Shown here piece after piece: positions 7,108 to 38,125 of a stretch of 64,000 nt of DNA. The stretch is from an uncultured Paracoccaceae bacterium (GTDB lineage: Bacteria; Pseudomonadota; Alphaproteobacteria; Rhodobacterales; Rhodobacteraceae): NCBI GenBank assembly GCA_947493255.1, contig CANLQK010000001.1, positions 434,001 to 498,000 on the forward strand. The letters are read 5' to 3'. The notes below the pieces were generated by a model. The model worked only from the letters and a program-made list of their open reading frames with translations, had not been told where the DNA came from and did no database searches. Position 1 is the first letter of the stretch; every line of letters starts with the position of its first letter. The translations under genes were made by a program, and so were the position numbers.

Positions 7108-7132
7108 GCTTAAGGCGTTTTTATAATGAAGG

Positions 7133-7393
7133 ATGTGGAATTTGCACAAACAATGCCACTTAGTTTTTGATGTCATGCCGGTTGGTAAGCCCCTTTTAGC
7201 GAGGGAGGTTTTTTACAGGTGCGGACAAGGATTTCCACAAGGTTTCAGCCTGAATGTAGTGACTTCCCTCTTGCATCAACTGGCGAATGACGGCGCTGTT
7301 TCACGCGAAAAAATAAAGAAGTTTACGGTCTACACTAGGACATCGAACAGACCAAACGCCATAGGAGGGCGACAAAATGAACGAAGAAAGTAA
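7133..7393 (+). CDS. Hypothetical phage protein, winged-helix-like
   Basis: Up to 86 residues. The part from residue 15 (M-P-V-G-K-P-L-L-A-R-E-V-F, V-V-T-S-L-L-H-Q-L-A-N-D-G-A-V, F-T-V-Y-T-R) resembles a small winged helix. The start is uncertain: the ATG at 7133 lacks a well-placed ribosome site and an ATG at 7175 is possible. It overlaps the GapR-like gene by 17 nt. Confidence 0.5.
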   Translation: MWNLHKQCHLVFDVMPVGKPLLAREVFYRCGQGFPQGFSLNVVTSLLHQLANDGAVSREKIKKFTVYTRTSNRPNAIGGRQNERRK

Positions 7394-7625
7394 GCGAGTA
7401 ACAGGCGCTGAATTGCGACAATTCATTGAACGAATTGAGCGATTGGATGCGGAAAAAAAGGACATTGCCGAAATGCAAAAAGAGGTAATGGCAGAGGCCA
7501 AGGGGCGTGGATACGACACGAAGGTCATGCGCAAGCTAATCGCCCTGCGCAAGCGCGACAGCAACGACATCGCGGAAGAAGAGGCGGTGTTGGAAATGTA
7601 TCAAGAAGCGTTGGGGATGGGCTAA
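7377..7625 (+). CDS. GapR-like DUF2312 nucleoid protein
   Basis: An 82-residue protein matching the UPF0335/DUF2312 family over its whole length: L-R-Q-F-I-E-R-I-E-R-L-D-A-E-K-K-D-I, then E-A-K-G-R-G-Y-D-T-K-V-M-R-K-L-I-A-L-R-K and a C-terminal E-E-E-A-V-L-E-M-Y. In Caulobacter GapR clamps overtwisted DNA and stimulates gyrase and topoisomerase IV ahead of forks. GGAGG precedes the start. It lies in the phage replication-recombination operon directly before SSB, suggesting help with replication-induced supercoiling of phage DNA. Confidence 0.85.
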   Translation: MNEESKRVTGAELRQFIERIERLDAEKKDIAEMQKEVMAEAKGRGYDTKVMRKLIALRKRDSNDIAEEEAVLEMYQEALGMG

Positions 7626-8017: not shown

Positions 8018-8059
8018 TCCTTAAAAACATGGCGTTAAGGCCCGATTTAGGTTGATGAA

Positions 8060-8986
8060 ATGACTGAAAAAACGTATGATTTGGTGGCAGACGGGGAGGC
8101 GGCAACCTCACCCGAAAGCCTGACCAAAGACGCAATAGGAGTGCGAAATATGGCTGATAAAGCTTTAGCAATTAATGAAATAGAACCGCAAGAAGTTTTG
8201 GTTCCCGCTGATCCCATGATTAGCATGATCGAGCGGGTTGCAATGGACCCCGATGCTGATTTGGAAAAGCTTGAGAGAATGCTCGAGCTTAAGAAGCAGC
8301 ACGACGAGCAAAATGCAAAAGCGCAGTTTGCAGCGGCTTTTTCTAGGGCGTCTGCGCAGTTCCCAACTATCCCCCTTAATGGGAAAGGCCACAATGACAA
8401 GCCATATGCGACCTTGAAGGATATAACCGCCCTGACTCGTCCGGTGCTTTCAGAGCATGGTCTAGCATTATCGTTTTCAGTCGAAGTTGGCGATGCTGTA
8501 GTTGTCACTGCTGAATTGATGCACCAAGCAGGTTACAGTAAGACAACCAGCATAGACTTGCCTAAGGACGCCAGCGGCAGCAAGAATGCCGTGCAAGCCG
8601 TTGGGTCATCTCAAACTTATGGGCAGCGATACACCGCTCAAGCAATCCTAGGCCTTTCCTTGGGGGATGATACCGAGGATGATGGGCGCTCCTCTGGACA
8701 GCCGCAGCGCCCCCCTATCTCCCCCAAGAGCGACACTTGGGAAGCGACTGTGATACAAGACCTTCCCGAAGGCTCAACGCCTAGGGAGGTGGCCAGCACT
8801 ATTGCCGCAGCATTATGCGCTCAGTTTAAGCGTAAAAAGTCGGAAAAGCAGCTTTTCAACGAGTGGGACCGGCGGGTTCACCTCATTGAGGGCAGCGACC
8901 GGCTAGAAGGTAAACATCCAGACCTGCATGAAATGGTTTGTGATGCCTACGAGATGCAGTTGATGGAGCTGAAAGAAACTTCATGA
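8060..8986 (+). CDS. ERF-family single-strand annealing protein
   Basis: A 308-residue protein. Residues about 85-215 carry the ERF core (A-Q-F-P-T-I, Y-A-T-L-K-D-I-T-A-L-T-R-P-V-L-S-E-H-G-L-A-L-S-F, then G-S-S-Q-T-Y-G-Q-R-Y). ERF proteins anneal complementary strands in phage homologous recombination and genome circularisation. The C-terminal 80 residues form a separate helical domain, perhaps for partner binding. It follows SSB, its usual functional partner. Confidence 0.85.
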   Translation: MTEKTYDLVADGEAATSPESLTKDAIGVRNMADKALAINEIEPQEVLVPADPMISMIERVAMDPDADLEKLERMLELKKQHDEQNAKAQFAAAFSRASAQFPTIPLNGKGHNDKPYATLKDITALTRPVLSEHGLALSFSVEVGDAVVVTAELMHQAGYSKTTSIDLPKDASGSKNAVQAVGSSQTYGQRYTAQAILGLSLGDDTEDDGRSSGQPQRPPISPKSDTWEATVIQDLPEGSTPREVASTIAAALCAQFKRKKSEKQLFNEWDRRVHLIEGSDRLEGKHPDLHEMVCDAYEMQLMELKETS

Positions 8987-13539: not shown

Positions 13540-13969
13540 ACTTACAGCGAACCAAGAGGCGTTTGCGCTTGCTTACATCGAGACAGGAAATGCAGCAGAA
13601 GCCTATAGACGGGCATATGATAAGCCCGAAAACGCTCGCGATAACTGGATTTATGTCGAGGCGTCACAGATGCTTGACCATCCTAAGGTATCCCTAAGAA
13701 TAAAAGAACTTCAAGAAGAGGCGGCAAAGCTCTCACTTTTCAATGTCAAAGCGGCATATGATGAGCTTGAGGAAGCGCGCGAATTGGCAAAGAAGGTAGA
13801 GAACCCTAGCGCAGCAGTGAGCGCCGTAATGGGCAAAATTAAATTGTTTGGGCTAGAAGCGCCGGGCAAATCGAAAGTCGTGCATTCGAACGATCCAGAT
13901 AGTCCTATGCCAGATGTTGCCGTATCCATCTATCAATTGCCAGACAATGGCCGAGACGAAACCGATTAA
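13532..13969 (+). CDS. Terminase small subunit
   Basis: A 145-residue protein. The N-terminus L-T-A-N-Q-E-A-F-A-L-A-Y-I-E-T-G-N-A-A-E-A-Y-R-R-A-Y is the standard Terminase_2-type HTH, which recognises the packaging site. A helical oligomerisation region follows (L-R-I-K-E-L-Q-E-E-A). It overlaps TerL by 23 nt and the previous small gene by 8 nt. Confidence 0.9.
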   Translation: MSELTANQEAFALAYIETGNAAEAYRRAYDKPENARDNWIYVEASQMLDHPKVSLRIKELQEEAAKLSLFNVKAAYDELEEARELAKKVENPSAAVSAVMGKIKLFGLEAPGKSKVVHSNDPDSPMPDVAVSIYQLPDNGRDETD

Positions 13970-15338
13970 ACCCCAGCCGGGGCCACAAGAGAAATTTCTT
14001 TCTTCACCTGCAGACATTGCTATTTATGGCGGGGCTGCCGGAGGGGGTAAGACGTGGGGCCTTCTCGTTGAGCCCTTGCGCCACATATCCAATAAGGATT
14101 TTGGTGCGGTTTTTTTTCGCCGCAATACAACGCAAATTAGAAATGAAGGCGGATTATGGGATGAGAGCGAGTCCCTATACCCGAAAGTTGGGGCTTCGCC
14201 GCGTTCGCACGTATTGCAGTGGAAATTCCATAGTGGGGCTACCGTAACATTCGCGCACTTAGAGCACGACAAGACTGTCAATAGCTATCAGGGTGCGCAA
14301 ATACCGTTGATATGCTTTGATGAGTTGACCCACTTTTCTAAGAAGCAGTTTTTCTACATGCTTAGCCGAAACCGCACAACATGTGGGATTCGGCCATATG
14401 TTAGGGCTACTTGTAACCCCGATGCTGACAGTTGGGTTGCTGACTTTATATCTTGGTGGATAGATCAGGACACAGGGTTAGCGATTCCAGAACGCTCCGG
14501 CGTTATAAGGTGGTTTGTAAAGGATGGAGATACGATCTCATGGGCAGACAGCCCCGATGAGTTAAGTTCACATACTATGCTGGATGAATACGGCGATACT
14601 GTACCGGTGCCGCCAAAATCCGTCACGTTTATTTCTGCTAAGCTCGAAGATAACAAAATACTGATGGGATCAGACCCATCTTATATGTCAAATTTAATGG
14701 CACTGTCTGCTGTTGACAGGGCGAGATTAAAAGATGGGAACTGGAAGGTAAGGCCTTCCTCTGGCTTATTCTTTAAGCGTGGTTGGTGCGAGGTGGTTGA
14801 GCAAGCTCCCGCAGGTCTCAAGGCTGTTAGGGGTTGGGATTTCGCAGCTACACCAGAAGATGGCTCGAACGATCCTGACTGGACATGCGGCACTAAGATG
14901 GCCAAGTCAGAAGATGGTATTTATTACGTTTTAGATCACGTATTTGATAGGTTAGGACCTAACGGCGTTGAGAAGATGTTGAAAAACACAACTTCCCAAG
15001 ACGGAAAGGGCGTAACGGTGGACATACCGCAGGACCCTGGTGCCGCTGGTAAGGCGCAAGTATCCACTTACACGAAATTACTTGCCGGTTATTCGGTTAA
15101 CTCTGGAGTCGTTACTGGCGATAAGGTCACGCGTTTCGCGCCATTTTCCGCGCAGGCTGAGGCAGGCAATGTGAAGGTCGTCCGTGGCTCCTGGAATGAG
15201 CGATGGTTTTCTGAGCTGGAAAGTTTCCCGCCCGACACCGGACATGATGACGACACAGATAGCACTGCTCAAGCGTTCAACGGCCTTCAAAAGCCTAAAG
15301 TTTCACGCGCTCCTAACGTTTTCGCGAGGCAGGTATGA
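13947..15338 (+). CDS. Terminase large subunit
   Basis: A 463-residue packaging motor, starting at ATG 13947. The ATPase domain has Walker A G-G-A-A-G-G-G-K-T (about residue 30) and Walker B I-C-F-D-E-L (about 125). The C-terminal RNase H-like nuclease begins at G-W-D-F-A-A-T-P-E-D-G-S with a further acidic G-H-D-D-D-T-D-S near the end. It translocates DNA into proheads and cuts concatemers. The presence of a terminase shows that this is not a Mu-type transposing phage despite its Mu-like tail. Confidence 0.93.
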   Translation: MAETKPIKPQPGPQEKFLSSPADIAIYGGAAGGGKTWGLLVEPLRHISNKDFGAVFFRRNTTQIRNEGGLWDESESLYPKVGASPRSHVLQWKFHSGATVTFAHLEHDKTVNSYQGAQIPLICFDELTHFSKKQFFYMLSRNRTTCGIRPYVRATCNPDADSWVADFISWWIDQDTGLAIPERSGVIRWFVKDGDTISWADSPDELSSHTMLDEYGDTVPVPPKSVTFISAKLEDNKILMGSDPSYMSNLMALSAVDRARLKDGNWKVRPSSGLFFKRGWCEVVEQAPAGLKAVRGWDFAATPEDGSNDPDWTCGTKMAKSEDGIYYVLDHVFDRLGPNGVEKMLKNTTSQDGKGVTVDIPQDPGAAGKAQVSTYTKLLAGYSVNSGVVTGDKVTRFAPFSAQAEAGNVKVVRGSWNERWFSELESFPPDTGHDDDTDSTAQAFNGLQKPKVSRAPNVFARQV

Positions 15339-16799: not shown

Positions 16800-17837
16800 A
16801 TGGATGGCAATCAGCGCGTCTTTGATGATGCGGTTAGATACGCTGTGTTTATTGAGCGGTTTAAGACTGGCGCAGTCAATCGACTTAGAGACTTTTTAAT
16901 TGAGCTAGACAGGGATCAGACCGCCGTTCTTGAAGGCATTCTCGCAAGAATGAGCGCGGACGATAGGAGAAACTTTCTCAGAGGTCGCGGCACACGCACG
17001 CAGCAATTGCAAAGGCTCATTGATGAGTTACAAACGATGCGCGTTGCCTCTGAGCAAGTCCTACTCGATCGGGTCACAGAAGAGGTCACGCCGATTGCTG
17101 AAATGATAGCGGCGAGAAACGCGGCGTCTGCAGCGGTCATCGGCGTTACAGCTTCAGTCCCAAGAGTGTCTCAATTGGAGCGCCTCGTAAGGCTAGAGCC
17201 ATTCCAGGGCAATGTCCTATCGGAATGGGCTAGGGACTGGTCTGATGCCCGCGTGCGTCGGGCTACGCAGCAAATACGGATTGGATTAGGGCTAGGCGAA
17301 CGCACGGACCAAATTGCCCGTCGTCTAATAGGTACGTCAGCCGCCAATAACACAGATGGCATACTGGCGGTATCAAGGCGCGGCGCCGAAACGATCGTAA
17401 GAACGTCAGCTAATCACGCGAGAACAGTTGGCGACGTAGAATTCGCTAGGGCTAACCGGGATCAGGTGAGAGCATTACTCCGCCGCGCGGTTCTGGATAC
17501 CCGCACATCGGATATTTGCCGGATCAATGACGGCAGGGAATACACGCCAGAAGAAGCTGACGGAGTTTTACCAGCGCACCCCAACTGCCGTAGCATCTTT
17601 ACGGTCCTGTGGAACAGGCAGGGGCGACCAGAAGATGACGATTATTTTGATTGGTTGAACCGACAGAATAGGGACGTCCAAGAGGAAGCTCTAGGGCCTA
17701 CAAGGGCGCGTTTGTTCCGCCAGGGTGGTTTACAGGGCCGCGACCTTATTAGAGCATCTACGGGCCAGCCATACACGCTTGATGAGCTTAGGCGGCGCGA
17801 GGCAGAGGCATTCGAAAGGGCAGGGTTAGATGAATAA
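16800..17837 (+). CDS. Mu F-like minor head protein
   Basis: A 345-residue protein with the C-terminal signature of the Mu gpF/SPP1 gp7 family: A-V-L-D-T-R-T-S-D-I-C-R, then L-P-A-H-P-N-C-R-S. These proteins take part in capsid morphogenesis or DNA ejection. The N-terminal 150 residues are helical. Starts 3 nt after the portal stop. Confidence 0.85.
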   Translation: MDGNQRVFDDAVRYAVFIERFKTGAVNRLRDFLIELDRDQTAVLEGILARMSADDRRNFLRGRGTRTQQLQRLIDELQTMRVASEQVLLDRVTEEVTPIAEMIAARNAASAAVIGVTASVPRVSQLERLVRLEPFQGNVLSEWARDWSDARVRRATQQIRIGLGLGERTDQIARRLIGTSAANNTDGILAVSRRGAETIVRTSANHARTVGDVEFARANRDQVRALLRRAVLDTRTSDICRINDGREYTPEEADGVLPAHPNCRSIFTVLWNRQGRPEDDDYFDWLNRQNRDVQEEALGPTRARLFRQGGLQGRDLIRASTGQPYTLDELRRREAEAFERAGLDE

Positions 17838-19192: not shown

Positions 19193-20224
19193 ATGTCTTG
19201 TAATGCTATTCTAAGCAAATTGAGCGGCACTGACCTTCAGGTTATGGCCGAAGAACGCCGCGCGGACTGCGTGGGTGAACTTTGGGATTCCGGTATTCTG
19301 CGCCGCGATTCTGAACTTGACCGCCTCGCAAACGGCGGCACATACGCAACTGACCACCACTTCTGGTCTTTCACCGGTCGGACAGACAATAACACGTCTT
19401 TCCCCGGCACTAATGAGCCTTGCGGCCCATGTAACACAGTCGGCAAAAAATCTGCTATGACCCGCAAGCTGTTTCGTACGAACTGCTGGGACATTAACTA
19501 CCTCGACGAGCAGGTTAACATCAACCGCCCCGCCGAGGCCGTCATTTCTGACTTGCTGCCGCAGTGGGAATTGGACATTGCAGAGCGCGACTTGGGTGCA
19601 GTAATTCAGGGCGTTTACCTAAACAACCAAGCTGACGACGCGTCTGACTTGATTTACGACGCTTCCGACGCTGCTACAAACTCAGTGCCCAACTTCGTCA
19701 CTAAGGACGCTGTACTTGAGGCTGTCGGCTTCATGGGCTGCCGTCGCAATGAGTTGGGCGGCATGATTGTTCATACTGACATTATGCGCTCCCTCGAAAA
19801 GCGTGACCTTATCACGTTTGCGCAGGTTAACTGTGATGACGGTGCATGTGTTGAGCGCGCATTCTTCAACAGCCGCCCAATCATCGAGGTTGAGGACGAT
19901 TGCTTGATCGATCCTAACACGCAAGAGTTTATCTCCGTTCTTTATCGCGATGGCGCGATTGCTTACGGCACAGGTACACCTGTAAATGGCGCACTTGAAG
20001 CTGACGCGGACCCATCCCGTGACTGTGGTGCCGGTGGTACAAACTGGTATCAGCGCGCGCAGTATGCGCTTCACCCTGTAGGCTGGTCCAACATCTTTGA
20101 CGCAGACGCTGCCAGCTCTGACGGCAACATGTCTACAACTAACCTTAAGGATCCTACAAGCTGGTGTCGTGTTCACGAAATCCGCAACGTAGGTCTAGCG
20201 TTTATCCGCTCCACGGAGCAGTAA
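19193..20224 (+). CDS. Major capsid protein
   Basis: A 343-residue protein in the expected position after the scaffold, with a strong ribosome site. It has a long N-terminal region, a central helix-rich part (E-L-D-I-A-E-R-D-L-G-A-V-I-Q-G-V) and a C-terminal V-H-E-I-R-N-V-G-L-A-F typical of phage coat proteins of the HK97 fold. It carries 11 cysteines, unusually many for a cytoplasmically assembled coat protein. Assignment rests on position, size and the C-terminal pattern. Confidence 0.75.
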   Translation: MSCNAILSKLSGTDLQVMAEERRADCVGELWDSGILRRDSELDRLANGGTYATDHHFWSFTGRTDNNTSFPGTNEPCGPCNTVGKKSAMTRKLFRTNCWDINYLDEQVNINRPAEAVISDLLPQWELDIAERDLGAVIQGVYLNNQADDASDLIYDASDAATNSVPNFVTKDAVLEAVGFMGCRRNELGGMIVHTDIMRSLEKRDLITFAQVNCDDGACVERAFFNSRPIIEVEDDCLIDPNTQEFISVLYRDGAIAYGTGTPVNGALEADADPSRDCGAGGTNWYQRAQYALHPVGWSNIFDADAASSDGNMSTTNLKDPTSWCRVHEIRNVGLAFIRSTEQ

Positions 20225-20225
20225 C

Positions 20226-20432
20226 ATGGAACGCCGCAAGCCCAAACTCCCGCAACAATACCGCAATGACATCGATCCAATGGTTCGCTTAGCGAAGCTG
20301 GAAGAGCAGGTTGCGGCGCTTATGTCCCAAAAGGCAGATGCCCCTAAGCGGGGGCGTCCGCCAAAGGCGCAATCAGTTGAACTGGAAGAGCCACAGAAAC
20401 AAGAGGTGAACGATGCCGGTACGGAGTCCTAA
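20226..20432 (+). CDS. Small basic protein with an AT-hook-like motif
   Basis: A 68-residue protein with a helical segment (R-L-A-K-L-E-E-Q-V-A-A-L-M) and then K-R-G-R-P-P-K, a close match to the AT-hook core R-G-R-P. It may bind DNA at the capsid interior or simply be a flexible basic linker protein. It lies between the coat gene and the beta-protein cluster. Confidence 0.55.
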   Translation: MERRKPKLPQQYRNDIDPMVRLAKLEEQVAALMSQKADAPKRGRPPKAQSVELEEPQKQEVNDAGTES

Positions 20433-21222
20433 CCCTCTAAATTGTTGCGTCGGTGGGGTTATCTCACCGGCTGCAATCACGATTAACACATCTGGTACTG
20501 CTATCCCGGTCTCTACGCAAAGTGGCGACTATGAATTTGGCTTTGACTCCGCAAATGGCCGCGTTGTTCGCGTTGAGTTTGTGACCAATTCCGACGGAAG
20601 CACGACCCCCACATATACATATCAGGATGATGGAACCCCCATGTCTAATAACTCTACATTTACGCCCGCAACAACAACTGCATCTATCGACACCGACGAT
20701 AATCAGATGTTCTCCACAAACACAGTCAGCACAGATGCCAACTACGGCCTGTGTCTTGAGCTGGAAAAGCGCACTGAGATAGACGGCGACGTAATTACAG
20801 GTGTGACTTACCACTTGGTAAATGACGTTGCTGCTATCTCCGGCGCTCGTGGCGATGACGTTACTGCGCTTGTTACGGCTGCGCCTTGGTCTGGCACACA
20901 GACGGATGAACAGTCTGTCATCATGCCAAACATCAACGTCACAGTCACTGGCGCAACGCCGATTGCTATGCCAGCACAGGCAACACACGCTGGCTACTGG
21001 CGCGCTGAAATCAACAACGGTTCTGGCGTGGTTTACACAACAGACGGCTCTGTACCTACGACAACACCTCTCAACGGTCAGCTTGCCCCATTCGGCGGCG
21101 TTATCCTGTTGAAGGAAGACGAGGGCGCAGCGTTCCTTGCATTGCCTGTTGACGGTTCCGGCCAAGTCGATGCAGCCGCATCCACCGATCTGAGCTTCGA
21201 GCAGCGCAACAAAGCTGCTTAA
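20413..21222 (+). CDS. Beta-rich head protein, 269 aa
   Basis: GAGGTGAACG precedes the ATG, which overlaps the previous gene by 20 nt. The sequence is rich in T, S, V and G with alternating strands throughout, few charges, and no signal peptide, as in decoration or fibre proteins. It begins with a C-C pair (N-P-L-N-C-C-V-G-G). A C-terminal G-S-V-P-T-T-T-P-L-N-G resembles chitobiase/Ig-type loops. Likely a virion surface protein; no family assigned. Confidence 0.55.
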   Translation: MPVRSPNPLNCCVGGVISPAAITINTSGTAIPVSTQSGDYEFGFDSANGRVVRVEFVTNSDGSTTPTYTYQDDGTPMSNNSTFTPATTTASIDTDDNQMFSTNTVSTDANYGLCLELEKRTEIDGDVITGVTYHLVNDVAAISGARGDDVTALVTAAPWSGTQTDEQSVIMPNINVTVTGATPIAMPAQATHAGYWRAEINNGSGVVYTTDGSVPTTTPLNGQLAPFGGVILLKEDEGAAFLALPVDGSGQVDAAASTDLSFEQRNKAA

Positions 21223-21274
21223 TATAAACGCCCTGCGCTTAACGGCGTGGGGCATCACTCAATGAGGTGGTTCA

Positions 21275-21691
21275 ATGACTAATATTTCTTCGTGGCAAGC
21301 AGGACGTACATCGGTAGCACCGGATCAAAACATCGATGGATGGGACATTGTGCTTCCCAATCAGCCTTTTCAACTTTTCGGCGGGGCAAACGTGAACTTT
21401 CCTTTCAGCGTCGAAAACAACACGTCTGACGTGATCGTTGGTGGGTCTATCACATTCACAGACCTTGGCCCGCTGGTGCCGAGCTTCAACCCGCGCACGT
21501 TGCCAACGGTTATGCAGGTGGGACAGTCTTCGTCGCCGCTTCTTGAGTTTAACGCTCCTGCGGGCTTTGGCTCCCAGACCATCACCGCGACAATGACAGG
21601 ACTGATTAACAACGATCCTAGCCAGCCTGTAACAACGACTGTGACAATCGACTTCCAAGAGGCGGTCGTCAATTTTTCAGGGCAGGGCTAA
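21275..21691 (+). CDS. Decoration-cassette protein 1
   Basis: First of five adjacent proteins sharing an N-terminal tag; here M-T-N-I-S-S-W-Q-A-G-R. After the tag comes a 115-residue Ig-like beta sandwich (F-P-F-S-V-E-N-N-T, S-I-T-F-T-D-L, Q-T-I-T-A-T-M). GAGG lies 8 nt upstream. The location after the coat gene suggests capsid decoration or head fibres, with the tag as docking peptide. That is inference; no named family is recognised. Confidence 0.6.
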   Translation: MTNISSWQAGRTSVAPDQNIDGWDIVLPNQPFQLFGGANVNFPFSVENNTSDVIVGGSITFTDLGPLVPSFNPRTLPTVMQVGQSSSPLLEFNAPAGFGSQTITATMTGLINNDPSQPVTTTVTIDFQEAVVNFSGQG

Positions 21692-21694
21692 CAG

Positions 21695-22099
21695 ATGGCA
21701 CGTAACATCGCGCCGTGGCAGGCTGGAAGGCTACCCTTCCCTTTCTTGTTCGTAACAGGCGAGATTTCTAACAGCGGGCCAACTCCTGCGCCCAGCCCCA
21801 ATGAAAACTTCACCTTCACCGTCTCAGACGCGGGTGATTACGTTTTCAGGTATGGCCCAGCAGCAGACATCCAACACACATCTGGGCTTGAGTTCCCCGC
21901 AGGCGGACAGGTCGGGATCACCGTGGCAGATAACGGCGTGAATGTTTCGACAGACAACGCGCAGCGTTTGCGTGTCGGTGATGTGGATACCTTCAAGGAA
22001 ATCACAGTCAACCTACCTGTCGCCGGAACGTACACACTTACAGTCTGGACTGGCGGCGGTTCATACGCAGATCAAGTTCAAGTCAGGATTTCACAATGA
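21695..22099 (+). CDS. Decoration-cassette protein 2
   Basis: N-terminus M-A-R-N-I-A-P-W-Q-A-G-R, then a proline linker and a 100-residue beta domain (F-T-F-T-V-S-D-A-G-D-Y-V-F-R-Y, A-G-T-Y-T-L-T-V-W). The D-A-G-D-Y pattern is that of bacterial pre-peptidase/Ig-like domains seen in fibres. The domain shows no evident similarity to its neighbours beyond the tag. Confidence 0.6.
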   Translation: MARNIAPWQAGRLPFPFLFVTGEISNSGPTPAPSPNENFTFTVSDAGDYVFRYGPAADIQHTSGLEFPAGGQVGITVADNGVNVSTDNAQRLRVGDVDTFKEITVNLPVAGTYTLTVWTGGGSYADQVQVRISQ

Positions 22100-22503
22100 C
22101 GCGAAACATAGCACCTTGGCAGGCCCCGCGCACAGCGCCGCTTCTGCCTACAATCCCTGAGTTCATCGTCAGCATAAACGGTGGCGCTGCAAACCATGAC
22201 ACCGCGTCTGGCACTTTTACATACGAGTGGGATAACTCGCTAAGCATAGGCGGCGACATTCAAGTTACTGCGGTCAACGTGTCCGATCCGTCTGGCCTGT
22301 ATTCGTATAGCGCGTCGGTTCCGTTCACTGCGGGGTTCAATAACTTTGACACTCGTGGCGTGGCTGTGACTGAAATTGCAACGGGCCTCGCTCCTGCGGT
22401 CGGTACACTTATTGCAGACGTGACCATCGAATTGATCGCAAACCAAGCAGCATCTCCAAACGATATTCGCACGTTTGAAACTGCCACAGCATACGTGGGG
22501 TAA
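22096..22503 (+). CDS. Decoration-cassette protein 3
   Basis: N-terminus M-T-R-N-I-A-P-W-Q-A-P-R, followed by a 115-residue beta-rich domain (F-I-V-S-I-N-G-G, I-Q-V-T-A-V-N-V, I-A-D-V-T-I-E-L-I-A). Coupled by ATGA to protein 2. Same tag, different body. Confidence 0.6.
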   Translation: MTRNIAPWQAPRTAPLLPTIPEFIVSINGGAANHDTASGTFTYEWDNSLSIGGDIQVTAVNVSDPSGLYSYSASVPFTAGFNNFDTRGVAVTEIATGLAPAVGTLIADVTIELIANQAASPNDIRTFETATAYVG

Positions 22504-22507
22504 TCCA

Positions 22508-22858
22508 ATGACACGCAACATTTCCTCTTGGCAGTCTTCGAGAATTATCTCTGTCCTGTCAGGCGCTTCCGTATCCTTCACCCTTGTCGGGGCACCTCCG
22601 CAAATCGTACCGGTAACGGCTAATCTAGATGGCGTACTACCAATTGGCCCGTCAGGAGTTGCCCTAACGATCCAATATGGCAACCTTGTCGTTGAACCTA
22701 TTAATCCTGTTGTCGTACCAGGCGGGGCGGCGGTGACGTACAATCGCTCTGACGCCGCAAACACGGTTACAGTGCAGTTAGCGGCTGACGGAACCACCCT
22801 GACTATCACGGCGTCTACAGGGAACGGGATACAAGCCGTTAGCGGGGTCGCAGTCTGA
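22508..22858 (+). CDS. Decoration-cassette protein 4
   Basis: The start is ATG 22508, because the tag M-T-R-N-I-S-S-W-Q-S-S-R begins there. It is the shortest member at 116 residues. The body is valine- and threonine-rich beta sequence (V-S-F-T-L-V-G, L-T-I-T-A-S-T-G-N-G). Starts 5 nt after the previous stop and overlaps the next start as TGATG. Confidence 0.6.
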   Translation: MTRNISSWQSSRIISVLSGASVSFTLVGAPPQIVPVTANLDGVLPIGPSGVALTIQYGNLVVEPINPVVVPGGAAVTYNRSDAANTVTVQLAADGTTLTITASTGNGIQAVSGVAV

Positions 22859-23373
22859 TGACACGCAATATTTCACCTTGGCAGGCTAGCAGATTAGCCG
22901 CGATTACCTTGTTAAACTACCGCTTCACAGCGACTGCTGTAAACGATACTACCTTACCTGGCGTTACTTCCCGCGCACGGATCGATAACGGCTCAGAGGA
23001 CGCGGGTAATATCGCTTCTGTAAGTGGCGCGACGGTTCTTTATCGCAACGAAGCCAACGGGACTGGAACTGTCTTAAACGACGGTTATGTAGAAGTAACG
23101 GCAGGCTCGCAGGACGTTCAGTTAACAGCGCAAATCAACACGCTAGGCACTGGAAGCCATTCCGGCACTGTATTTTGGCGTGACATCAATGCGACCAACA
23201 ACCCTATCGGCGGCCAGACGCAAGGCACATACGGGCAGGGTAGCACCAATCAGCCCGCCGTTATTGTCGTGCCTGCTGGTCAAACAGTAACCTATACGGT
23301 TCGCGTTTCTCCGTCGGCCAACAATCAAGTGGTTCAGGTTGGTTCATATATCGAAGCCGTGGAGTTGCCGTAA
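22858..23373 (+). CDS. Decoration-cassette protein 5
   Basis: N-terminus M-T-R-N-I-S-P-W-Q-A-S-R, followed by a 155-residue beta-rich body (Y-R-F-T-A-T-A-V-N-D, D-V-Q-L-T-A-Q-I-N-T-L, V-T-Y-T-V-R-V-S). Longest of the five. Coupled on both sides (TGATG and TAATG). Confidence 0.6.
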   Translation: MTRNISPWQASRLAAITLLNYRFTATAVNDTTLPGVTSRARIDNGSEDAGNIASVSGATVLYRNEANGTGTVLNDGYVEVTAGSQDVQLTAQINTLGTGSHSGTVFWRDINATNNPIGGQTQGTYGQGSTNQPAVIVVPAGQTVTYTVRVSPSANNQVVQVGSYIEAVELP

Positions 23374-25046
23374 TGTCATTTAACGACGCATTCGAAATTC
23401 TAAAAGGCCGTATTGATCGCGTGCGTCTTGGTCCGAAAGAGGACTTTGATTTTCGCTTTCTGCGTCCGTTAAAGGGCGACTACGTAAACGCCGCTGGTGA
23501 TGTGTTCACCGCACAGGAAACCTTTGACGCTGGTTATGAACCGTTTGATGAGCCTGTTTGCTCGTCCACCGCGCCATATGTGAATAACGGCATTTTGCAG
23601 ATTGCGAACCCTCCTTCCGGCGAGGTCGGGACGATGGTTAATGTAGGCAGCATTACTTTGGGTAGCGGCCTTGGCAATCCGGTCGATTACCCTATCGCAT
23701 TTACTGCGCCAGACGGAAATACTTATAATGTAGTGCTTCAAGTCACGCGGATTGGTGGGGGTGGCGGTACGCCTGTTCTAAACACGGCAGTCAGCAATAT
23801 CGCCGCTTCGGGTGGTCACAATTACCGCTATCGTTTGATCGCTGGCGCTGACGTTCTGGGCGAAGTTCCCACGCTTCGTTGGGCTGTCAAGCCTAGCAGC
23901 TTGAACGGCGGCGGCGAAACATTCCAAGTTGTGGGCGGTGTCGATAGCTTCCCAACTGATTTCGTAGCGGGCGGAAACAGCAACGCTACACAGGCAGATT
24001 GGGATAACCAAACAGGCATTTTCGATCCGGCGCTCAACGGTTCCTTCACGTTCACAAACACTAACAACCAATCAACAGTTTCGGCGTTTGAATTTACTGG
24101 AAGTGACGTTTCATTCATCTTAAACACGCAGTCGGGGGTCGGCGCTGGCTTAGTCATCCACCTCTTGGAAGGGCCATCTTACGACATTTGCCTTTGTGAA
24201 AAGGTGGAGGAATTAAAGGAAGAAATCGCAGCCCTGCCAATCACGGCGGATAGCTCTACAGGTGTCTTTGGCCTCGGATCGTACGACACAACGTTCACCG
24301 TTGACGGCATTGATCGACAAACCGATCTAGACCTAACCCAAGCGTTGGGCATGGACCTTCACATCACTGTTGTTGATGCCGGAACGCCTCGCGCTTGGCA
24401 GACGGGTGTTGTGCCGGTTGACAGCATCATGGCAGCCTTCAATTCTGGTGATGCCGTAGACTTCCGGATGAACTTCTTTGATAACGATTTCCTTATTGGT
24501 AATGTTATCGACCCCGCCCTTGGCATCCTGAACATTACAGACAACGGGCGACAGTTCGATATCGTTAAAATGGAGTTGCGCGGGCCAGCAATCCCAACAG
24601 AGGTGACATCATTCGCTCAGGCGTCTCTTGTCGGCCAAAACGGGAACCAAGCAAACGCAGCGTATGACCTAACAACTGGGCTGACGACCATCGGCACAAG
24701 ATGGACAGCTAACGCGGAAGACTTCACTCTTTCTGGGGCTGCAAGCTATGTCGAGTTGTCAGCGATGGCGACTTACACTTACGACGCCGCCGACGGAAAC
24801 GTAGCTGCATTGCAGCGTGTCGCGCCGATATTAGAGCTTCACAAGAACGGTGTTTTGGTGGCGGCTTCTGCAACCGCATACCAACGGCACACGTCAGGCC
24901 ATAACGACAGTTCAAATACCATCACACATACTGACCTATCACCGGCAGTTGGTGATGTCTGGGAACTTCGAATGACCCAAGGCGCGACACAGAACGATGT
25001 GCTCAACGTCACACACGGCCAATTTACAGCAAAGGCAGTTGGATAA
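23373..25046 (+). CDS. Large beta-rich head-fibre or decoration protein
   Basis: A 557-residue protein without the W-Q tag. Residues 1-50 are compact and charged (a possible capsid-binding base); the rest is several beta domains rich in T, N, G and V, with a helical linker near residue 275 (C-L-C-E-K-V-E-E-L-K-E-E-I-A-A-L) that could trimerise. Gene position after the decoration cassette and before the connectors suggests a head fibre. No family recognised. Confidence 0.55.
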   Translation: MSFNDAFEILKGRIDRVRLGPKEDFDFRFLRPLKGDYVNAAGDVFTAQETFDAGYEPFDEPVCSSTAPYVNNGILQIANPPSGEVGTMVNVGSITLGSGLGNPVDYPIAFTAPDGNTYNVVLQVTRIGGGGGTPVLNTAVSNIAASGGHNYRYRLIAGADVLGEVPTLRWAVKPSSLNGGGETFQVVGGVDSFPTDFVAGGNSNATQADWDNQTGIFDPALNGSFTFTNTNNQSTVSAFEFTGSDVSFILNTQSGVGAGLVIHLLEGPSYDICLCEKVEELKEEIAALPITADSSTGVFGLGSYDTTFTVDGIDRQTDLDLTQALGMDLHITVVDAGTPRAWQTGVVPVDSIMAAFNSGDAVDFRMNFFDNDFLIGNVIDPALGILNITDNGRQFDIVKMELRGPAIPTEVTSFAQASLVGQNGNQANAAYDLTTGLTTIGTRWTANAEDFTLSGAASYVELSAMATYTYDAADGNVAALQRVAPILELHKNGVLVAASATAYQRHTSGHNDSSNTITHTDLSPAVGDVWELRMTQGATQNDVLNVTHGQFTAKAVG

Positions 25047-26558: not shown

Positions 26559-26794
26559 TGATTTCTATTGCGACTGAGTATGTCGAGTCATTCGTATGGT
26601 GGATCTTAGGCGTTCTTGCCCTTGCGGTCGGTTGGGTTGGCAGAAACATCCTTACAAATGGCAAACGGCTGGACCTTTTAGAACAGAATGGAAAACATCA
26701 ATCTGTTTTGAGGCAGCAAGACCACGAGGCCATCAAGGAAGTTCGCGACGACTTGAGGGACATAAAAAGCCATTTGATGGGGCGCTCAAAATGA
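26558..26794 (+). CDS. Membrane-anchored coiled-coil protein, 78 aa
   Basis: Starts at the ATG in TGATG at 26558. One transmembrane helix (residues 12-31, W-W-I-L-G-V-L-A-L-A-V-G-W-V-G) is followed by a charged coiled coil (residues 35-75). The topology resembles small phage holin/spanin-type proteins, but it lies far from the lysis genes and next to the DUF1353 gene. Confidence 0.6.
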   Translation: MISIATEYVESFVWWILGVLALAVGWVGRNILTNGKRLDLLEQNGKHQSVLRQQDHEAIKEVRDDLRDIKSHLMGRSK

Positions 26795-26937
26795 GAACTT
26801 TAACTTTCCCGCCATCCGCGCGCGTCCTGAACTTCCCGCCACAAGAGCGAAACCTAACATTTACGGTCAGCAATCGGGCTTTGAAGTTTCCCGCGTCTGC
26901 CCGCTTACTGAAATTCAAGGATTATGAAAATGTCTAA
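26791..26937 (+). CDS. Octapeptide-repeat microprotein, 48 aa
   Basis: Almost the whole protein is five consecutive 8-residue units of form R-x-L-x-F-P-x-S/Q-(A/E): T-L-T-F-P-P-S-A, R-V-L-N-F-P-P-Q-E, R-N-L-T-F-T-V-S-N, R-A-L-K-F-P-A-S-A, R-L-L-K-F. The codons differ between units, so selection acts on the protein. Regular L-x-F spacing suggests short beta strands stacked or binding a repeated partner. Coupled by ATGA upstream and an 8-nt overlap downstream. Confidence 0.65.
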   Translation: MRTLTFPPSARVLNFPPQERNLTFTVSNRALKFPASARLLKFKDYENV

Positions 26938-27283
26938 TTGTTGCTTCGATAAGTGCTGCGTTGACAGCCTTGACCCTATTATGTTTGGTGAGCGCGCGCC
27001 TGTATTTTTGGAAATGGGCGACTGGCTTGATAGTGTTTACAGTCAAGGCGTCGACCCCTCCGGCACTTCTATCTGCATTAATCCTGCGGCAAATACGTCG
27101 ACGGGCGAAACTCCTGACGACCTCATGGCTTGCAACGTGAACTACGACCACGTCACGAAAATTCTGTCATTCAACATCTACGGCGGAACGGCTGGTGCGG
27201 GATACCAAGTTACGGTTGCTGTAAAAACGTGCGAAGGACATATCGGTAAATATTGCTTTAAACAGTACATCAAGGCCTGTTAA
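26930..27283 (+). CDS. Cysteine-rich virion protein, 117 aa
   Basis: The start is placed at ATG 26930 (AAGG 9 nt upstream, 8-nt overlap with the microprotein). It has nine cysteines in 117 residues, including C-C at 4-5 and C-C near 9-10, and a C-terminal C. A small beta fold is likely (I-L-S-F-N-I-Y-G-G, Y-Q-V-T-V-A-V). Just upstream of the head-tail connector genes. No family recognised. Confidence 0.55.
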   Translation: MSNCCFDKCCVDSLDPIMFGERAPVFLEMGDWLDSVYSQGVDPSGTSICINPAANTSTGETPDDLMACNVNYDHVTKILSFNIYGGTAGAGYQVTVAVKTCEGHIGKYCFKQYIKAC

Positions 27284-27802
27284 ATGGAGATTATTAAGCG
27301 CGAGGCGTTCGCGCCGACATCAGCAGATATTGAAGCGCTTAAATCGCACATGGGGCTATGCGGCGACGAAGACGTTTCCACATATCTGGATGCTGCTGTG
27401 GACCATGTGGAGCGCGTCACGGCGACGTGTTTGCGCGAAACGCAGGTATCTTTCATCTCCGAGGGTGGCCACGTTGTATTTCCGCTAACGCCAGTAAAGC
27501 GCGTTGATAAAGTACACGTTATTTCCCGCCACGGTATGCGCGTTCCTTATGGACGTTTCAAAACGCCGCTGGTTTTGTCTTTGGCTAATGAGGATTGCAT
27601 AGGGTACGAAATCACATACACCGCAGCGCCCACGGAAATTCCGCCGGTGTTTCGTTTGGCTGTTTTTGACGTAGCCCACGCGTTCTACGATCGCCAGCCA
27701 CCACCCGATTTAGTAAACGGCATTCTTAGAGGATACGTCCCAAATTCGCTGCAAACATTTAAACGCGCGTTTGGCGGGTCCCTTAACACGAGGGTAAAAT
27801 GA
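27284..27802 (+). CDS. Head-tail connector protein (gp6-like)
   Basis: A 172-residue protein with an N-terminal two-helix region (D-I-E-A-L-K-S-H-M-G, Y-L-D-A-A-V-D-H-V-E-R), then beta strands and a C-terminal helix (L-A-V-F-D-V-A-H-A-F-Y), the layout of the HK97 gp6/SPP1 gp15 connector family. It would bind under the portal. First gene of the connector block. Confidence 0.65.
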   Translation: MEIIKREAFAPTSADIEALKSHMGLCGDEDVSTYLDAAVDHVERVTATCLRETQVSFISEGGHVVFPLTPVKRVDKVHVISRHGMRVPYGRFKTPLVLSLANEDCIGYEITYTAAPTEIPPVFRLAVFDVAHAFYDRQPPPDLVNGILRGYVPNSLQTFKRAFGGSLNTRVK

Positions 27803-29196: not shown

Positions 29197-30648
29197 ATGG
29201 CAAACATCGAAGGAATCCTCCCCGGTGCAAACTTCTGCGTCGATTTATCCAACACAACTATCGACCAGAACTGTTGCGCCGCTACTTTTGTCGCGCCAAT
29301 GACAACTGGCACAGCCACAGCATATGAAGTGCAGACGGTAGCCACTGTCGGGCAGTCAGCCCTGCTGTTTGGCCCAGACAGCCCCGCACACGAAATTGTG
29401 CAGGCATACTTTGATGTTTTCCCATCAGGTAGCCTGCAAGTCATCCCATTCCTGCCAACTGGCGCTGCGGCCACCGGATCATTTGCAATCACGGGTACAG
29501 CTACAGAAAACGGCGTTGTTGAGGTTTTTATCAATGGCGAAGTTTATATTGTTGATGTTCTTACTGGCGACACGGCAGCGGGTGTCGTGACGGACTTGGC
29601 GGCGGACATCGCAGCCGATGCAGTCGCGCCTGTTTCCGCAGTCGACGGCACCACATCTGTTGACTTAACTGCAAAGGTTGGCGGCACGTTCGGCAACGCA
29701 ATCTACATTGACGCATCAGAAGGCCCCGACGGCATTACCGTGACTGTCAACGCAATGTCTGGCGGCGCCGGAACGGCTGATTATACCCTTGCAACGTCTG
29801 CCGTTGGCGAAGGTTGCTGTGCTGACTTCTTCGCGTTCTTAGACACAGACGATACATCTATGGATCTGGTGGAAACTTGGATGGAAGGCCGCTGGTCCTG
29901 CGGCATTCAGAATTTCACTGGTGGCCGGTATTACAATGTCATTCGCGAAAACTTCACAGACACTCTCACTTATTTAATGGGGCGCACAGACCGCTTCGGC
30001 TCTACGGTGACGCTTTGTGAAGCTGACGAGGTTAGCGACTACCAAGCGCTAGCAGGCGCAGTCGCTGCCATGCACAATTCCCGTTGTGACAACCCAACAT
30101 CTCCTTACACCGGAAGCCAGGTTTCAGTTATCCCGAACCTCGTTGGCGTTGGTTGCTCTTCTAGCTGCTTTGGCGTTGACGAGGAAATTGCACTCGCTAG
30201 CTACGGCGCAACACTCCTGCGCAATGGCAACGGCGGCAGCAAAGAAATCCTAGTATCAACCGGCCTGGGCATCCAAGACGACCTTGGGCAGATCGACACT
30301 TTCGCGCGCCACCCCCAAGCGGCTTACCAAATCCAAGATATCGTGTCACTTATTAGCGACCATGTAGATACGCAGTATGAAGATACGGTATTGGTCCCTA
30401 ATGGGACGCCTACAGCAAGCGTAAGTAACACAGTCACGCCAAACCAATTCAACGCGGAATTGGCAGCTGTGCTGCGCCCATTTGAGGGTCGCCTAGTAAT
30501 CGATGTTGATGCAATTCTTGAAGGCATCGAAACTACAATCGATGCACGTAACCCAAGTCGCCTTGTGTCTTGCATTAACTTCAACTTAGCAAGCGCCCTT
30601 CGCGCCTTCGATATCACACTCAAACCAACACTAACACTGGGGGCTTAA
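29197..30648 (+). CDS. Contractile tail sheath protein
   Basis: A 483-residue Mu gpL-like protein. The N-terminal region includes an inserted beta domain (about residues 90-195, with D-V-L-T-G-D-T-A-A-G-V-V-T-D-L-A). Downstream a Y-N-V-I-R-E segment and a C-terminal R-L-V-S-C-I-N-F-N-L-A-S-A-L-R-A-F-D-I-T-L fit sheath proteins, whose terminal strands interlock with neighbours. Eleven cysteines. Identifies the particle as a myovirus. Confidence 0.85.
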   Translation: MANIEGILPGANFCVDLSNTTIDQNCCAATFVAPMTTGTATAYEVQTVATVGQSALLFGPDSPAHEIVQAYFDVFPSGSLQVIPFLPTGAAATGSFAITGTATENGVVEVFINGEVYIVDVLTGDTAAGVVTDLAADIAADAVAPVSAVDGTTSVDLTAKVGGTFGNAIYIDASEGPDGITVTVNAMSGGAGTADYTLATSAVGEGCCADFFAFLDTDDTSMDLVETWMEGRWSCGIQNFTGGRYYNVIRENFTDTLTYLMGRTDRFGSTVTLCEADEVSDYQALAGAVAAMHNSRCDNPTSPYTGSQVSVIPNLVGVGCSSSCFGVDEEIALASYGATLLRNGNGGSKEILVSTGLGIQDDLGQIDTFARHPQAAYQIQDIVSLISDHVDTQYEDTVLVPNGTPTASVSNTVTPNQFNAELAAVLRPFEGRLVIDVDAILEGIETTIDARNPSRLVSCINFNLASALRAFDITLKPTLTLGA

Positions 30649-35771: not shown

Positions 35772-36179
35772 ATGTTCTTTCAGAACACGGGCGGCGATTG
35801 CTGTCCTGATTGGGTCGTGGAATGCCAGAACTTTTCATGCAATGGCGCCTTATACGATGCCATAGTCACCAGATTATTCACAGAGGCTAGAGAGCCCGGT
35901 TGCCAAGGTGGGGGCTGGTGGTGTGACCCGACGAGAGGGTCGCGGCTTCATACCGTGGACACCTCCAACATATCAGAGGCCATCCCGCTTAGCGAAGAAT
36001 ATGCAAATGAGGCTTTGGCTGACTTGGTCTCATCTGGAGTAGTCACAGACCTTAGCGTGACGGCTGAATACGCTGGGAACCAGTCAGTAAGCATAACTGT
36101 TTCAATAACACAGCCTTCTGGCTGTCAAGAAACATTCGGATTTTCTAGCGGTCAATATGGATGGGTATGGAATGGCTGA
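35772..36179 (+). CDS. Baseplate wedge protein, Mu gp46-like
   Basis: A 135-residue protein with seven cysteines. W-W-C-D-P-T-R-G-S-R-L-H and A-N-E-A-L-A-D-L-V-S-S-G-V-V match the GP46 pattern (G-S-R-L-W, E-A-L-x-x-L-x-x-x-G-V). An 8-nt overlap with the next gene. Confidence 0.8.
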   Translation: MFFQNTGGDCCPDWVVECQNFSCNGALYDAIVTRLFTEAREPGCQGGGWWCDPTRGSRLHTVDTSNISEAIPLSEEYANEALADLVSSGVVTDLSVTAEYAGNQSVSITVSITQPSGCQETFGFSSGQYGWVWNG

Positions 36180-37221
36180 TATTCAAGAAATTAAGGATTC
36201 CGTAGATGCGGAGTTTTCAACTCGACTACTTGGCGGCAACCCTGTCCTGCCGCAGTCAAACTTCGATATTATGGCGGGGTTTATCGCCTTCCTGCAATTC
36301 GGCAACGAAAAATTCATTGAAAGCGTTCGCGACGGCGTTACCCCAGTGGGTTCAACGGGATCAAACCTTGAGTCTTGGGGATCGACTTATGGCGTAGGTC
36401 GCCTCGCGGCTAGCGCGGCTTCTGGCACGATCACATTGTCCGGCACTAATGGGTCCATCCTGCCTGCCGGGACGGTGTTAACGCGGTGCGATAGCTTCCA
36501 ATATGTCACCAATTCAGACGCAACTATCGTGGGCGGGAACGCATCGGTTAGCGTGACGGCGTCCACGGCTGGATCATCGGGTAACTTCCCCGCTGGCGGC
36601 GTCCTAAACGTGGGTTCGGTCACTGCTGGAATTAACAATGTAGCCCTGTCGCAGGGCATATCTGGTGGGTCTGAAATAGAGTGCGATGATAATTATAGGG
36701 TTCGAATACTTTCCGCGATCAGGACGCCTTGTCGCACTGGCACAGCGGAAGATTACGATTTCTGGGTTCGGCAATATCCTGGCGTCACTCGCGTTTGCGT
36801 TCTTGAGCAGCCAGAAGGTCCGGGGACAGTATCAGTTTTCTTCATGATGGATGATACATATCCAGATGGCGTACCAATGCCTGCAGATGTTACCGCAGTA
36901 AGTGACTCCTTATTCGGGGCAGGGGGATTGGCCCCGCTCGGAATCGTCGGGACCGCTCAGGCCCCAACTCTGCTGCCCGTGGACGTAACTTTGAGCTTTA
37001 CAGAAGTTGTTAGCGCGCAAGATGCACAAGCAATTCAGGACGCCATCAGCGCAGCGTTTTTGGATTTCTTCGATTGTGGGCAATCTCTAGTATGCCCTGC
37101 GGATATAGCCGTGGCTGTTCGAACGGTTACTTCTGCTTGCTTCACTATAAATTCGCCTGCGTCTAATCAAGTTGTCCCGTCGGGTAGCGTTCCAATCTTG
37201 GGGAGCTTAACATTTGTCTAG
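36172..37221 (+). CDS. Baseplate J-like protein, Mu gp47-like
   Basis: A 349-residue protein starting at ATG 36172 (8-nt overlap). It has the helical N-terminus with F-I-A-F-L-Q, L-E-S-W-G-S-T-Y-G, a beta domain (A-S-G-T-I-T-L-S-G) and E-D-Y-D-F-W-V-R-Q-Y-P-G-V-T-R-V, hallmarks of the Baseplate_J family. It forms baseplate wedges with the gp48-like protein. Confidence 0.85.
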   Translation: MADIQEIKDSVDAEFSTRLLGGNPVLPQSNFDIMAGFIAFLQFGNEKFIESVRDGVTPVGSTGSNLESWGSTYGVGRLAASAASGTITLSGTNGSILPAGTVLTRCDSFQYVTNSDATIVGGNASVSVTASTAGSSGNFPAGGVLNVGSVTAGINNVALSQGISGGSEIECDDNYRVRILSAIRTPCRTGTAEDYDFWVRQYPGVTRVCVLEQPEGPGTVSVFFMMDDTYPDGVPMPADVTAVSDSLFGAGGLAPLGIVGTAQAPTLLPVDVTLSFTEVVSAQDAQAIQDAISAAFLDFFDCGQSLVCPADIAVAVRTVTSACFTINSPASNQVVPSGSVPILGSLTFV

Positions 37222-38125
37222 CTTTGGTTGTACCGCAGACAGTCAAGATTGTGCGGATGTATTCGATCCCTGTGGAATATCCAGAGATGAGTTTATTTGC
37301 CAAGCCTTGAAGCTCCTACCCGACGGTGAGTTTTGGGGTAGGCGAAATTGCAACTTCTCTAATTTCTTCGTCGCTATTGCGTCGACTTATTACGACCAGT
37401 TCACGAAAACATGCGGTCTTTCCCTTGAGGGTAACCCATGCACTGCGACGGATACATTAGGCGAGTGGGCGTCAATCTGGGATTCTAGGTGCGAAGGACT
37501 GCCGGAAGATCCAGACGAGCTAAGGGATTTGTTATGCGTCCTCATCCGTTCAAACGGCGTCTTAACCAAGCAAATCATCGAAGACGAAATAACGGCTCTA
37601 GGATACGACGTGGTTTCTTGCGAGGTTGACACAACTCGCAGCTCTACGCTCGTGACTCCAGTTTGCGGCTTCATTCCGGGTGTTTACGTGCCTGGGGTAA
37701 AGGCTCCTTCTTTAGGTATTATCGATGAGTGCGCGGAAAGTTTCAGGAATACTCCTTGCGCATCTGATTTTATAGCGGCTTGTTGCGACCAAGAGGAAGA
37801 AACTCAGGCTGGCCCCTTAAACATTCAATGCGCCCCTATAACCCCGGCATCGGGCTTCCTAAAGATGGGAACGCCAGGAGCGGCACAGATTGGTGCATCA
37901 TACTTCCCGCTAGAAAACCCTTGGACAATAAATGTTATCGTGTCCCTGAATAGCCCAGCTATTCAGCCCTTTCTGTGCGAAATCCAGAGGTCCCAATATC
38001 CGGGCTATCCAGGCTTCACGCCAGGCCCATTCTGCCTACCCAATTTTGAGATCCCGTTTATATGCGCGATCGAAATTCTGCGCCCTGCGCATTTATCAAT
38101 TAACATCAGAACGGAGTGTCCATAA
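37214..38125 (+). CDS. Tail protein, Mu gp48-like, very cysteine-rich
   Basis: A 303-residue protein. TTG start at 37214, supported by GGGGAG 8 nt upstream and the 8-nt overlap. The region A-L-K-L-L-P-D-G-E-F-W and L-G-E-W-A-S-I-W-D-S-R-C-E-G-L-P, ending with L-G-Y-D-V, follows the YmfQ/DUF2313 (gp48) pattern. It carries 20 cysteines (6.6%), far more than relatives that I know. The C-terminal 120 residues are an added domain. Confidence 0.75.
   Translation: MSSFGCTADSQDCADVFDPCGISRDEFICQALKLLPDGEFWGRRNCNFSNFFVAIASTYYDQFTKTCGLSLEGNPCTATDTLGEWASIWDSRCEGLPEDPDELRDLLCVLIRSNGVLTKQIIEDEITALGYDVVSCEVDTTRSSTLVTPVCGFIPGVYVPGVKAPSLGIIDECAESFRNTPCASDFIAACCDQEEETQAGPLNIQCAPITPASGFLKMGTPGAAQIGASYFPLENPWTINVIVSLNSPAIQPFLCEIQRSQYPGYPGFTPGPFCLPNFEIPFICAIEILRPAHLSINIRTECP

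Follow-up and report, generated by a model that had tools for sequence, protein, structure and literature searches.

Hoc and Hoc-like proteins (T4 Hoc, T5 pb10 and Sf14 gp20; families phrog_4069 and phrog_2973) are accessory proteins of the phage head, which combine a conserved capsid-binding part with variable beta domains. Phages Muldoon and PG7 are each described as having two Hoc proteins with a common capsid-binding domain, and one of the PG7 proteins carries a lipase-like domain (PMC10385173). The capsid-binding part of Hoc-type proteins is a folded domain, comprising the N-terminal 118 residues in Sf14 gp20 (PMC11821841) and residues 1–77 in a construct of pb10. Here, we consider a cassette of five adjacent genes in a putative prophage, carried by a 64,000-nucleotide stretch of DNA (the window) from an uncultured Paracoccaceae bacterium (assembly GCA_947493255.1, contig CANLQK010000001.1, positions 434,001 to 498,000). 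Unlike Hoc proteins, the five products share only a peptide of 11–12 residues at their N-termini (the tag), and there are five of them in one phage.

Several other described systems resemble this cassette in part. The coat protein of the element is of the family of gp13 of phage SPP1, which itself has a non-essential auxiliary protein at the hexamer centre (PMC6813328). That protein, gp12, is one collagen-like 6.6-kDa trimer on a ring of Glu197, whereas here there are five tagged proteins, and the coat has Thr208. In multi-spike phages (K1E, K1-5, SP6, KP34, Menlow, and PhiK64-1), a short N-terminal peptide is joined to several different bodies (PMC6872550), and the same pattern, a short N-terminal peptide common to adjacent proteins with different bodies, is found in the cassette. 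However, the spike peptides attach large depolymerase spikes to an anchor on the tail, while the tagged genes fall within the head-gene half of the element and have bodies of 104–159 amino acids. In T4, about 10 N-terminal residues are common to divergent head proteins of one phage (PMC9026906), but those propeptides are cleaved by a prohead protease and the proteins are basic, whereas the tags lack the L/I-X-E motif and the tagged proteins are acidic. Lastly, the phage proteins called tentaclins combine Ig-like domains with an end that presumably anchors them to the virion (PMC10743442), but a domain described for them has no match here. A limited set of word searches in the open-access literature found no description of a short peptide common to several head proteins for surface display. 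A shared capsid-binding domain (Hoc), spike docking peptides, and T4 targeting peptides are already known; a single head with five tagged proteins would add a new variation on them.

The reading that we favour, with a probability of roughly 55%, is that the tag, as a basic docking peptide, attaches five different small domains to a single kind of capsid site. On this view, the products of the five genes would be accessory proteins of the head, in a prophage that has a contractile tail and an SPP1-type coat. Their first 11–12 residues would form the common docking peptide, in which Trp and Arg would probably make the contacts, and would bind a site that recurs across the virion, the coat shell being the likeliest place for it. 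Each protein would display a different small acidic domain projecting outward, possibly a glycan-binding one, with one type of site and five alternatives to fill it. The presence of the proteins in virions, the coat as their partner, display on the outer surface, and ligand binding are presumed parts of this proposal. We infer the step to the capsid from the position of the cassette and from the contrast between a basic tag and an acidic coat protein (pI, or isoelectric point, 4.5). Docking on the coat lattice is proposed on the basis of two precedents: Sf14 Hoc-like gp20 is reported to be anchored through Arg–Asp salt bridges (PMC11821841), and the capsomer contacts of T4 Hoc are reported to use conserved Trp and Arg (PMC10385173). 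A bolder version, in which the tag is a 12-residue universal plug for a repeated capsid site and the head wears a mixed coat of five ligand-binding domains, is tentative, and we would sooner doubt it than accept it.

The tagged genes and their common N-terminus

The cassette consists of five consecutive open reading frames (ORFs) on the plus strand, starting at 21275, 21695, 22096, 22508, and 22858. All begin where a previous sequence-only reading had placed them, and the N-terminal tag that it described on five adjacent proteins is real. Protein 1 (21275–21691; 138 amino acids, pI 4.1) opens with MTNISSWQAGR (21275–21307, 11 codons), protein 2 (21695–22099; 134 amino acids, pI 4.5) with MARNIAPWQAGR (21695–21730), protein 3 (22096–22503; 135 amino acids, pI 4.1) with MTRNIAPWQAPR (22096–22131), protein 4 (22508–22858; 116 amino acids, pI 4.7) with MTRNISSWQSSR (22508–22543), and protein 5 (22858–23373; 171 amino acids, pI 4.9) with MTRNISPWQASR (22858–22893). 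The consensus is M-[TA]-(R)-N-I-[AS]-[PS]-W-Q-[AS]-[GPS]-R, in which Asn, Ile, Trp, Gln, and the final Arg are invariant. As had been noted, the tag of protein 1 lacks the Arg at position 3 and is one codon shorter. Without their tags, the bodies of proteins 1 to 5 measure 127, 122, 123, 104, and 159 amino acids. The starts at 22096 and 22858 each overlap the stop of the preceding gene, and the tagged ATG of gene 4 at 22508 lies inside a longer mechanical ORF that begins with TTG at 22475.

A similarity of this kind is rarely reached by chance. Ungapped N-terminal scores among the four full-length tags range from 37 to 52, and when 200,000 pairs of N-termini were drawn at random from 1,861 background ORFs, only one reached the 37 of the weakest full-length pair; gene 1 was excluded from this test, as its alignment would need a gap. 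A scan of 26,597 pairs of same-strand ORFs at most 6 kb apart, covering the window and other loci (excluding L001–L004 and L007), gave five pairs outside the window with a score of at least 29. The two that scored above 30, in L043 (37) and L053 (53), also have similar bodies (108 and 170, compared with 30–47 for the tagged pairs) and so resemble ordinary paralogues. A score of 30 belongs to one pair seen twice, since L023 and L027 overlap, and the last pair (29) is again in L043.

A second test looked for a conserved N-terminal 40 residues combined with a dissimilar remainder, among 162 proteins from 25 loci (13,041 pairs). Ten of 491 same-locus pairs passed, and eight of these are tag pairs, out of ten possible. 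The other two, one in L017 and one in the window (25046/27284), are both close to the threshold. Beyond the tag, none of the ten pairs of bodies has convincing similarity (Z from −0.6 to 2.1; best p 0.043, uncorrected), in keeping with the claim that the proteins diverge fully after it. The bodies may have been exchanged behind the tag, or they may have drifted apart past recognition.

Conservation lies in the peptide and not in the DNA. Pooled over the tag pairs, the proportion of differences is 0.87 at synonymous sites (pS), which are saturated, and 0.18 at nonsynonymous sites (pN), while codons vary freely: the final Arg is encoded by CGT, AGG, CGC, AGA, and AGA in genes 1 to 5, and the Ile by ATT, ATC, ATA, ATT, and ATT. 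The tag is under purifying selection as a peptide, and its copies are old. Recent copying of one gene start is disfavoured by the codon divergence. The same observations make it extremely improbable that the similarity reflects a function at the level of RNA or DNA, such as a translation start enhancer or a recombination site. The location of the similarity at start codons would suit such a function, but synonymous sites are saturated, Arg and Ile codons differ, and the DNA upstream of the five tags, judged by eye, is unlike from gene to gene.

Antisense ORFs on the minus strand overlie the tagged genes (22240–22809; 189 amino acids) and the 269-amino-acid gene upstream of them (20464–21258; 264 amino acids). 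Both are probably shadow ORFs.

The bodies and what they might do

All five tagged proteins are acidic (pI 4.1–4.9), with basic tags (pI 9.5–12.0), and their bodies contain no Cys and no or one Lys, with abundant Thr, Val, and Gly. Pfam matches were found for three of the five (proteins 1, 2, and 5), all below threshold: Big_3_5 for protein 1 (E 0.0018), a weak Ig-like hint; fn3_3, PPC, and others for protein 2 (best E 0.01); and Big_2 and fn3_5 for protein 5 (best E 0.094). Protein 2 also weakly matches a family of virion structural proteins, phrog_19293 (E 0.025), and no Hoc-like PHROG was matched by any of the five, with E values up to 1 considered.

AlphaFold2, with single-sequence input, was run on proteins 2 and 5. 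It gave no usable structure for protein 5 (mean predicted local distance difference test, or pLDDT, 38.4) and a weak model of protein 2 (mean pLDDT 50.7), with residues 1–36 unstructured and seven strands within residues 37–133. Foldseek matches to this model are weak (best E about 4e-4, template modelling scores mostly 0.35–0.5) and include a sugar-binding protein, CBM6, CBM35, and CBM51, as well as protease, BcsB, and GOLD domains. The best matches among solved structures are carbohydrate-binding beta sandwiches and other folds, none of them Ig. These fold matches hint at carbohydrate binding by protein 2, and no more. The sequence-only reading had spoken of beta bodies and of Ig-like domains. 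The first description gains from the low-confidence but usable model of protein 2, one of two that were folded. On the second, Pfam gives the sub-threshold matches of three proteins, and the solved structures nearest to the protein 2 model are not Ig.

The tag might alternatively be a common assembly or interaction motif that does not dock on the virion, for example, one that brings the five proteins into a single mixed oligomer. Their genes sit side by side, one start touching or overlapping the end of another gene, and the proteins are therefore probably made together. However, the N-terminal 36 residues of protein 2 were modelled without structure (in a weak model), and the position of the genes among coat and neck genes favours a virion role. 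We regard the mixed oligomer as very improbable.

A further alternative is that the tag is a capsid-targeting sequence for five internal proteins, which would be ejected with the DNA, as are IPI, IPII, and IPIII of T4. The T4 internal proteins have short common N-terminal propeptides and divergent mature parts, and 10 residues are reported to suffice for IPIII; this device has been proposed as a means of packaging varied proteins (PMC9026906). The tagged proteins have the same layout, and in protein 3 a single L/I-X-E site (IPE, residue 20) follows closely behind the tag. However, T4 propeptides are cut after L/I-X-E, a motif contained in none of the five tags and found within the first 88 residues of protein 3 only. 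No prohead protease was the best family match of any head gene scanned, and the acidity of the tagged proteins is at odds with the basic character of T4 internal proteins (PMC9026906). Internal targeting is, on balance, distinctly unlikely.

The coat protein and the slot after its gene in related phages

The major coat protein (19193–20224, plus strand; 343 amino acids, phrog_247) is assigned by sequence to the SPP1 gp13 family. On its own, it matches gp13 in phmmer at E 4e-9, and a profile built from seven relatives matches 4AN5 and 6R3A, both of which are SPP1 gp13 (PMC6813328), at E 5e-99. The cassette sits between the coat gene and the neck genes, in the head half of the gene order. It does not lie directly after the coat gene, as had been supposed, since ORFs of 68 amino acids (20226–20432) and 269 amino acids (20413–21222), both on the plus strand, intervene.

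In SPP1, gp12 trimers are reported to occupy the centre of the hexamer, where they bind to six Glu197 residues arranged in a ring, with Phe198 beneath, and a change of Glu197 abolishes gp12 binding (PMC6813328). Coat proteins from 25 loci were aligned at this column, and the presence of an accessory protein was judged by eye. All nine loci with an accessory protein (L013, L014, L016, L017, L033, L035, L048, L049, and L053) have Asp/Glu-Phe, and 10 of the 15 loci in which none was seen do not. Asp/Glu-Phe might predict which phages bear decorations at the hexamer centre. In the window coat, this stretch (TFAQVNCDDGACVE) has Thr208-Phe at the column, followed by a two-residue insertion and then by the acids of NCDDGACVE; the alignment near this insertion is uncertain.

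Among the six annotated coat relatives inspected (L012–L017), four (L013, L014, L016, and L017; Bas74, yong3, 033B, and BUCT626) encode, in the slot after the coat gene, a protein whose N-terminal arm is basic and whose remainder is acidic. The first 12 residues of these slot proteins have a pI of 10.8–11.4, and the part after residue 35 a pI of 4.2–5.5. Those of Bas74 (7112–7456) and yong3 (8043–8417) have matches both in Hoc-like decoration families and among the Ig domains of Pfam, that of 033B has weak Ig and tail matches only, and that of BUCT626 has weak matches to virion proteins only. No basic-arm protein follows the coat gene in the other two, TVCOM_ph1 and ART.

A further 18 loci comprise 16 of the 28 from a scan with the L026 coat protein, which is 22% identical to the window coat, together with L077 and L078. 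Five of them (L033, L035, L048, L049, and L053) have slot proteins whose N-terminal segment recurs across phages (Z 4.3–27.9), joined to dissimilar bodies (Z at most 3.1). Five of the ten pairs of this set rank in the first 13 of the 129 pairs that passed the N-terminal test when all 13,041 were compared, and the list also includes neck genes. These shared-segment slot proteins are support, but not proof, for a docking peptide on the head. The segments take the forms GLPDDLLTSD...LKV and WYPMGGNGGIPSD...RRIKV (L033:3486, L035:10777, L049:10249, L048:9356, and L053:10336), and slot segments after SPP1-type coat genes possibly constitute a wider anchor family.

The tag itself has no detected counterpart elsewhere. 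DNA patterns, which can detect close variants only, found no second tagged set in the own genome or in the collections scanned; the tandem tagged genes that the sequence-only reading had suggested looking for in phage genomes were likewise not found in this way. Exact tag patterns matched 0, 3, and 17 stretches in viral contigs and two in genome contigs, none of them a tagged gene; these stretches are attributed to chance, lying in short frames or in the interior of other frames. When one mismatch was tolerated, the family set of 394 genomes yielded the tag in the own genome alone, and in a genus set of 19 genomes, five others had one match each, none of which starts a tagged protein; a reversed control pattern gave two matches in the same set. 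Queries with the coat, portal, head-morphogenesis, and baseplate proteins found no relative in viral contigs by a method that needs exact short peptides, while coat searches beyond the own genome found relatives in 1 of 394, 3 of 390, and 2 of 385 genomes, at 22–31% identity. Cassette DNA had no match in plasmids, and protein 5 had none in the phage collection. No tag-like set was seen in the loci of terminase relatives (L009–L011) or portal relatives (Pkon1, L018; R5C, L019).

The docking site could instead be a fibre, neck, or tail anchor, such as the product of the next gene downstream, an acidic ORF of 557 amino acids (23373–25046, plus strand) that adjoins the cassette and has no tag. Conserved N-terminal peptides of as few as 7 residues, among them those of 7 or 11 residues in K1E, K1-5, and SP6, are described or proposed to dock several receptor-binding proteins (PMC6872550), and the window coat lacks the acid that SPP1 uses for its auxiliary protein. 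Against such an anchor, the cassette lies ahead of the neck and sheath genes, and its bodies of 104–159 amino acids are dwarfed by tabulated spikes of 607–1612 (PMC6872550). The 557-amino-acid ORF has no match to a docking family, and no T4gp10-like docking domain was found among the ORFs scanned, which did not include every ORF and involved no fold comparison of candidate anchors. We consider this alternative unlikely, while giving it real weight.

Docking on the capsid, which the sequence-only reading had also proposed, draws support from purifying selection on the tag, the dissimilar bodies, and the slot position, and several observations weigh against it. The acid at the SPP1 Glu197 position, a place where accessory proteins are known to sit in this coat family, is replaced by Thr208 in the window coat, which counts against simple docking at an SPP1-type ring, and Asp/Glu-Phe also occurs in five loci in which no accessory protein was seen (L034, L038, L040, L043, and L044). 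The charge argument is weakened by the general acidity of the element, as 29 of 35 phage products have a pI below 6. The assignment of a fold rests on one model, of mean pLDDT 50.7. The N-terminal test does not single out decoration proteins, since many of the 129 passing pairs are neck-gene homologues, and the set of five shared-segment slot proteins was chosen by eye after inspection. No tagged relative was found in the collections scanned by DNA pattern. Considered together, Thr208 and the IPE site of protein 3 led us to weigh capsid docking and its bolder version slightly lower, and internal targeting slightly higher.

The prophage and its other genes

Family matches in the window cover a large terminase, portal, head morphogenesis protein, coat protein, head–tail adaptor, tail sheath, tape-measure-like protein, baseplate, and amidase. 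These phage genes are embedded in a 593-kb bacterial contig, and we call the element a putative prophage. The tail sheath gene (29197–30648, plus strand; phrog_165) indicates a contractile tail, and the first neck gene encodes the head–tail adaptor (27284–27802, plus strand; phrog_442). The head morphogenesis protein (16800–17837) belongs to phrog_241 (E 7e-80), with a secondary match to a maturation-protease family (E 1e-9) that falls far below it. A phageSPP1_gp7 domain (E 7e-8, below its own cut-off) points to an SPP1 gp7-type minor head protein, and the element matches an SPP1-type head module in this protein and in its gp13-type coat. The terminase (13914–15338) is 63–65% identical to those of two Rhizobium phages, while the coat protein is 24–28% identical to the best 40 phage matches listed, which points to a mosaic genome. 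Phages related to the element include those of Rhizobium, Paracoccus, and Dinoroseobacter, which points to an alphaproteobacterial host.

The 269-amino-acid ORF that adjoins the cassette upstream is acidic and, like its counterpart of 557 amino acids downstream, is untagged and without a match in the phage collection. Cys is abundant, often as CC pairs, in several presumed virion proteins: the coat (11 residues), an ORF of 119 amino acids at 26924–27283 (9), the sheath (11), an ORF of 135 amino acids at 35772–36179 (7), and the baseplate wedge protein at 37214–38125 (20). The five tagged proteins contain none. Cys-rich virion proteins might mean that the particles are strengthened by disulphides.

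Two repeat-bearing genes lie further downstream. An ORF of 48 amino acids (26791–26937), whose start overlaps the preceding stop, consists of about five imperfect (R)xLxFxxxx repeats (RTLTFPPSA, RVLNFPPQE, RNLTFTVSN, RALKFPASA, and RLLKFKDYE). An acidic protein of 657 amino acids (40112–42085) has internal NTTFGDIADLPAGLTFYRNAGDN-like repeats and weak family matches only, and is probably fibre-like.

Possible consequences for display on the phage head

If the five proteins dock on the head as proposed, a phage head would use a minimal natural docking peptide to display several domains at once. The multi-ligand logic of branched tail spikes would then extend to the head, where the Hoc account cited above names two such proteins per phage (PMC10385173). 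The tag would also offer a short natural peptide for capsid display.

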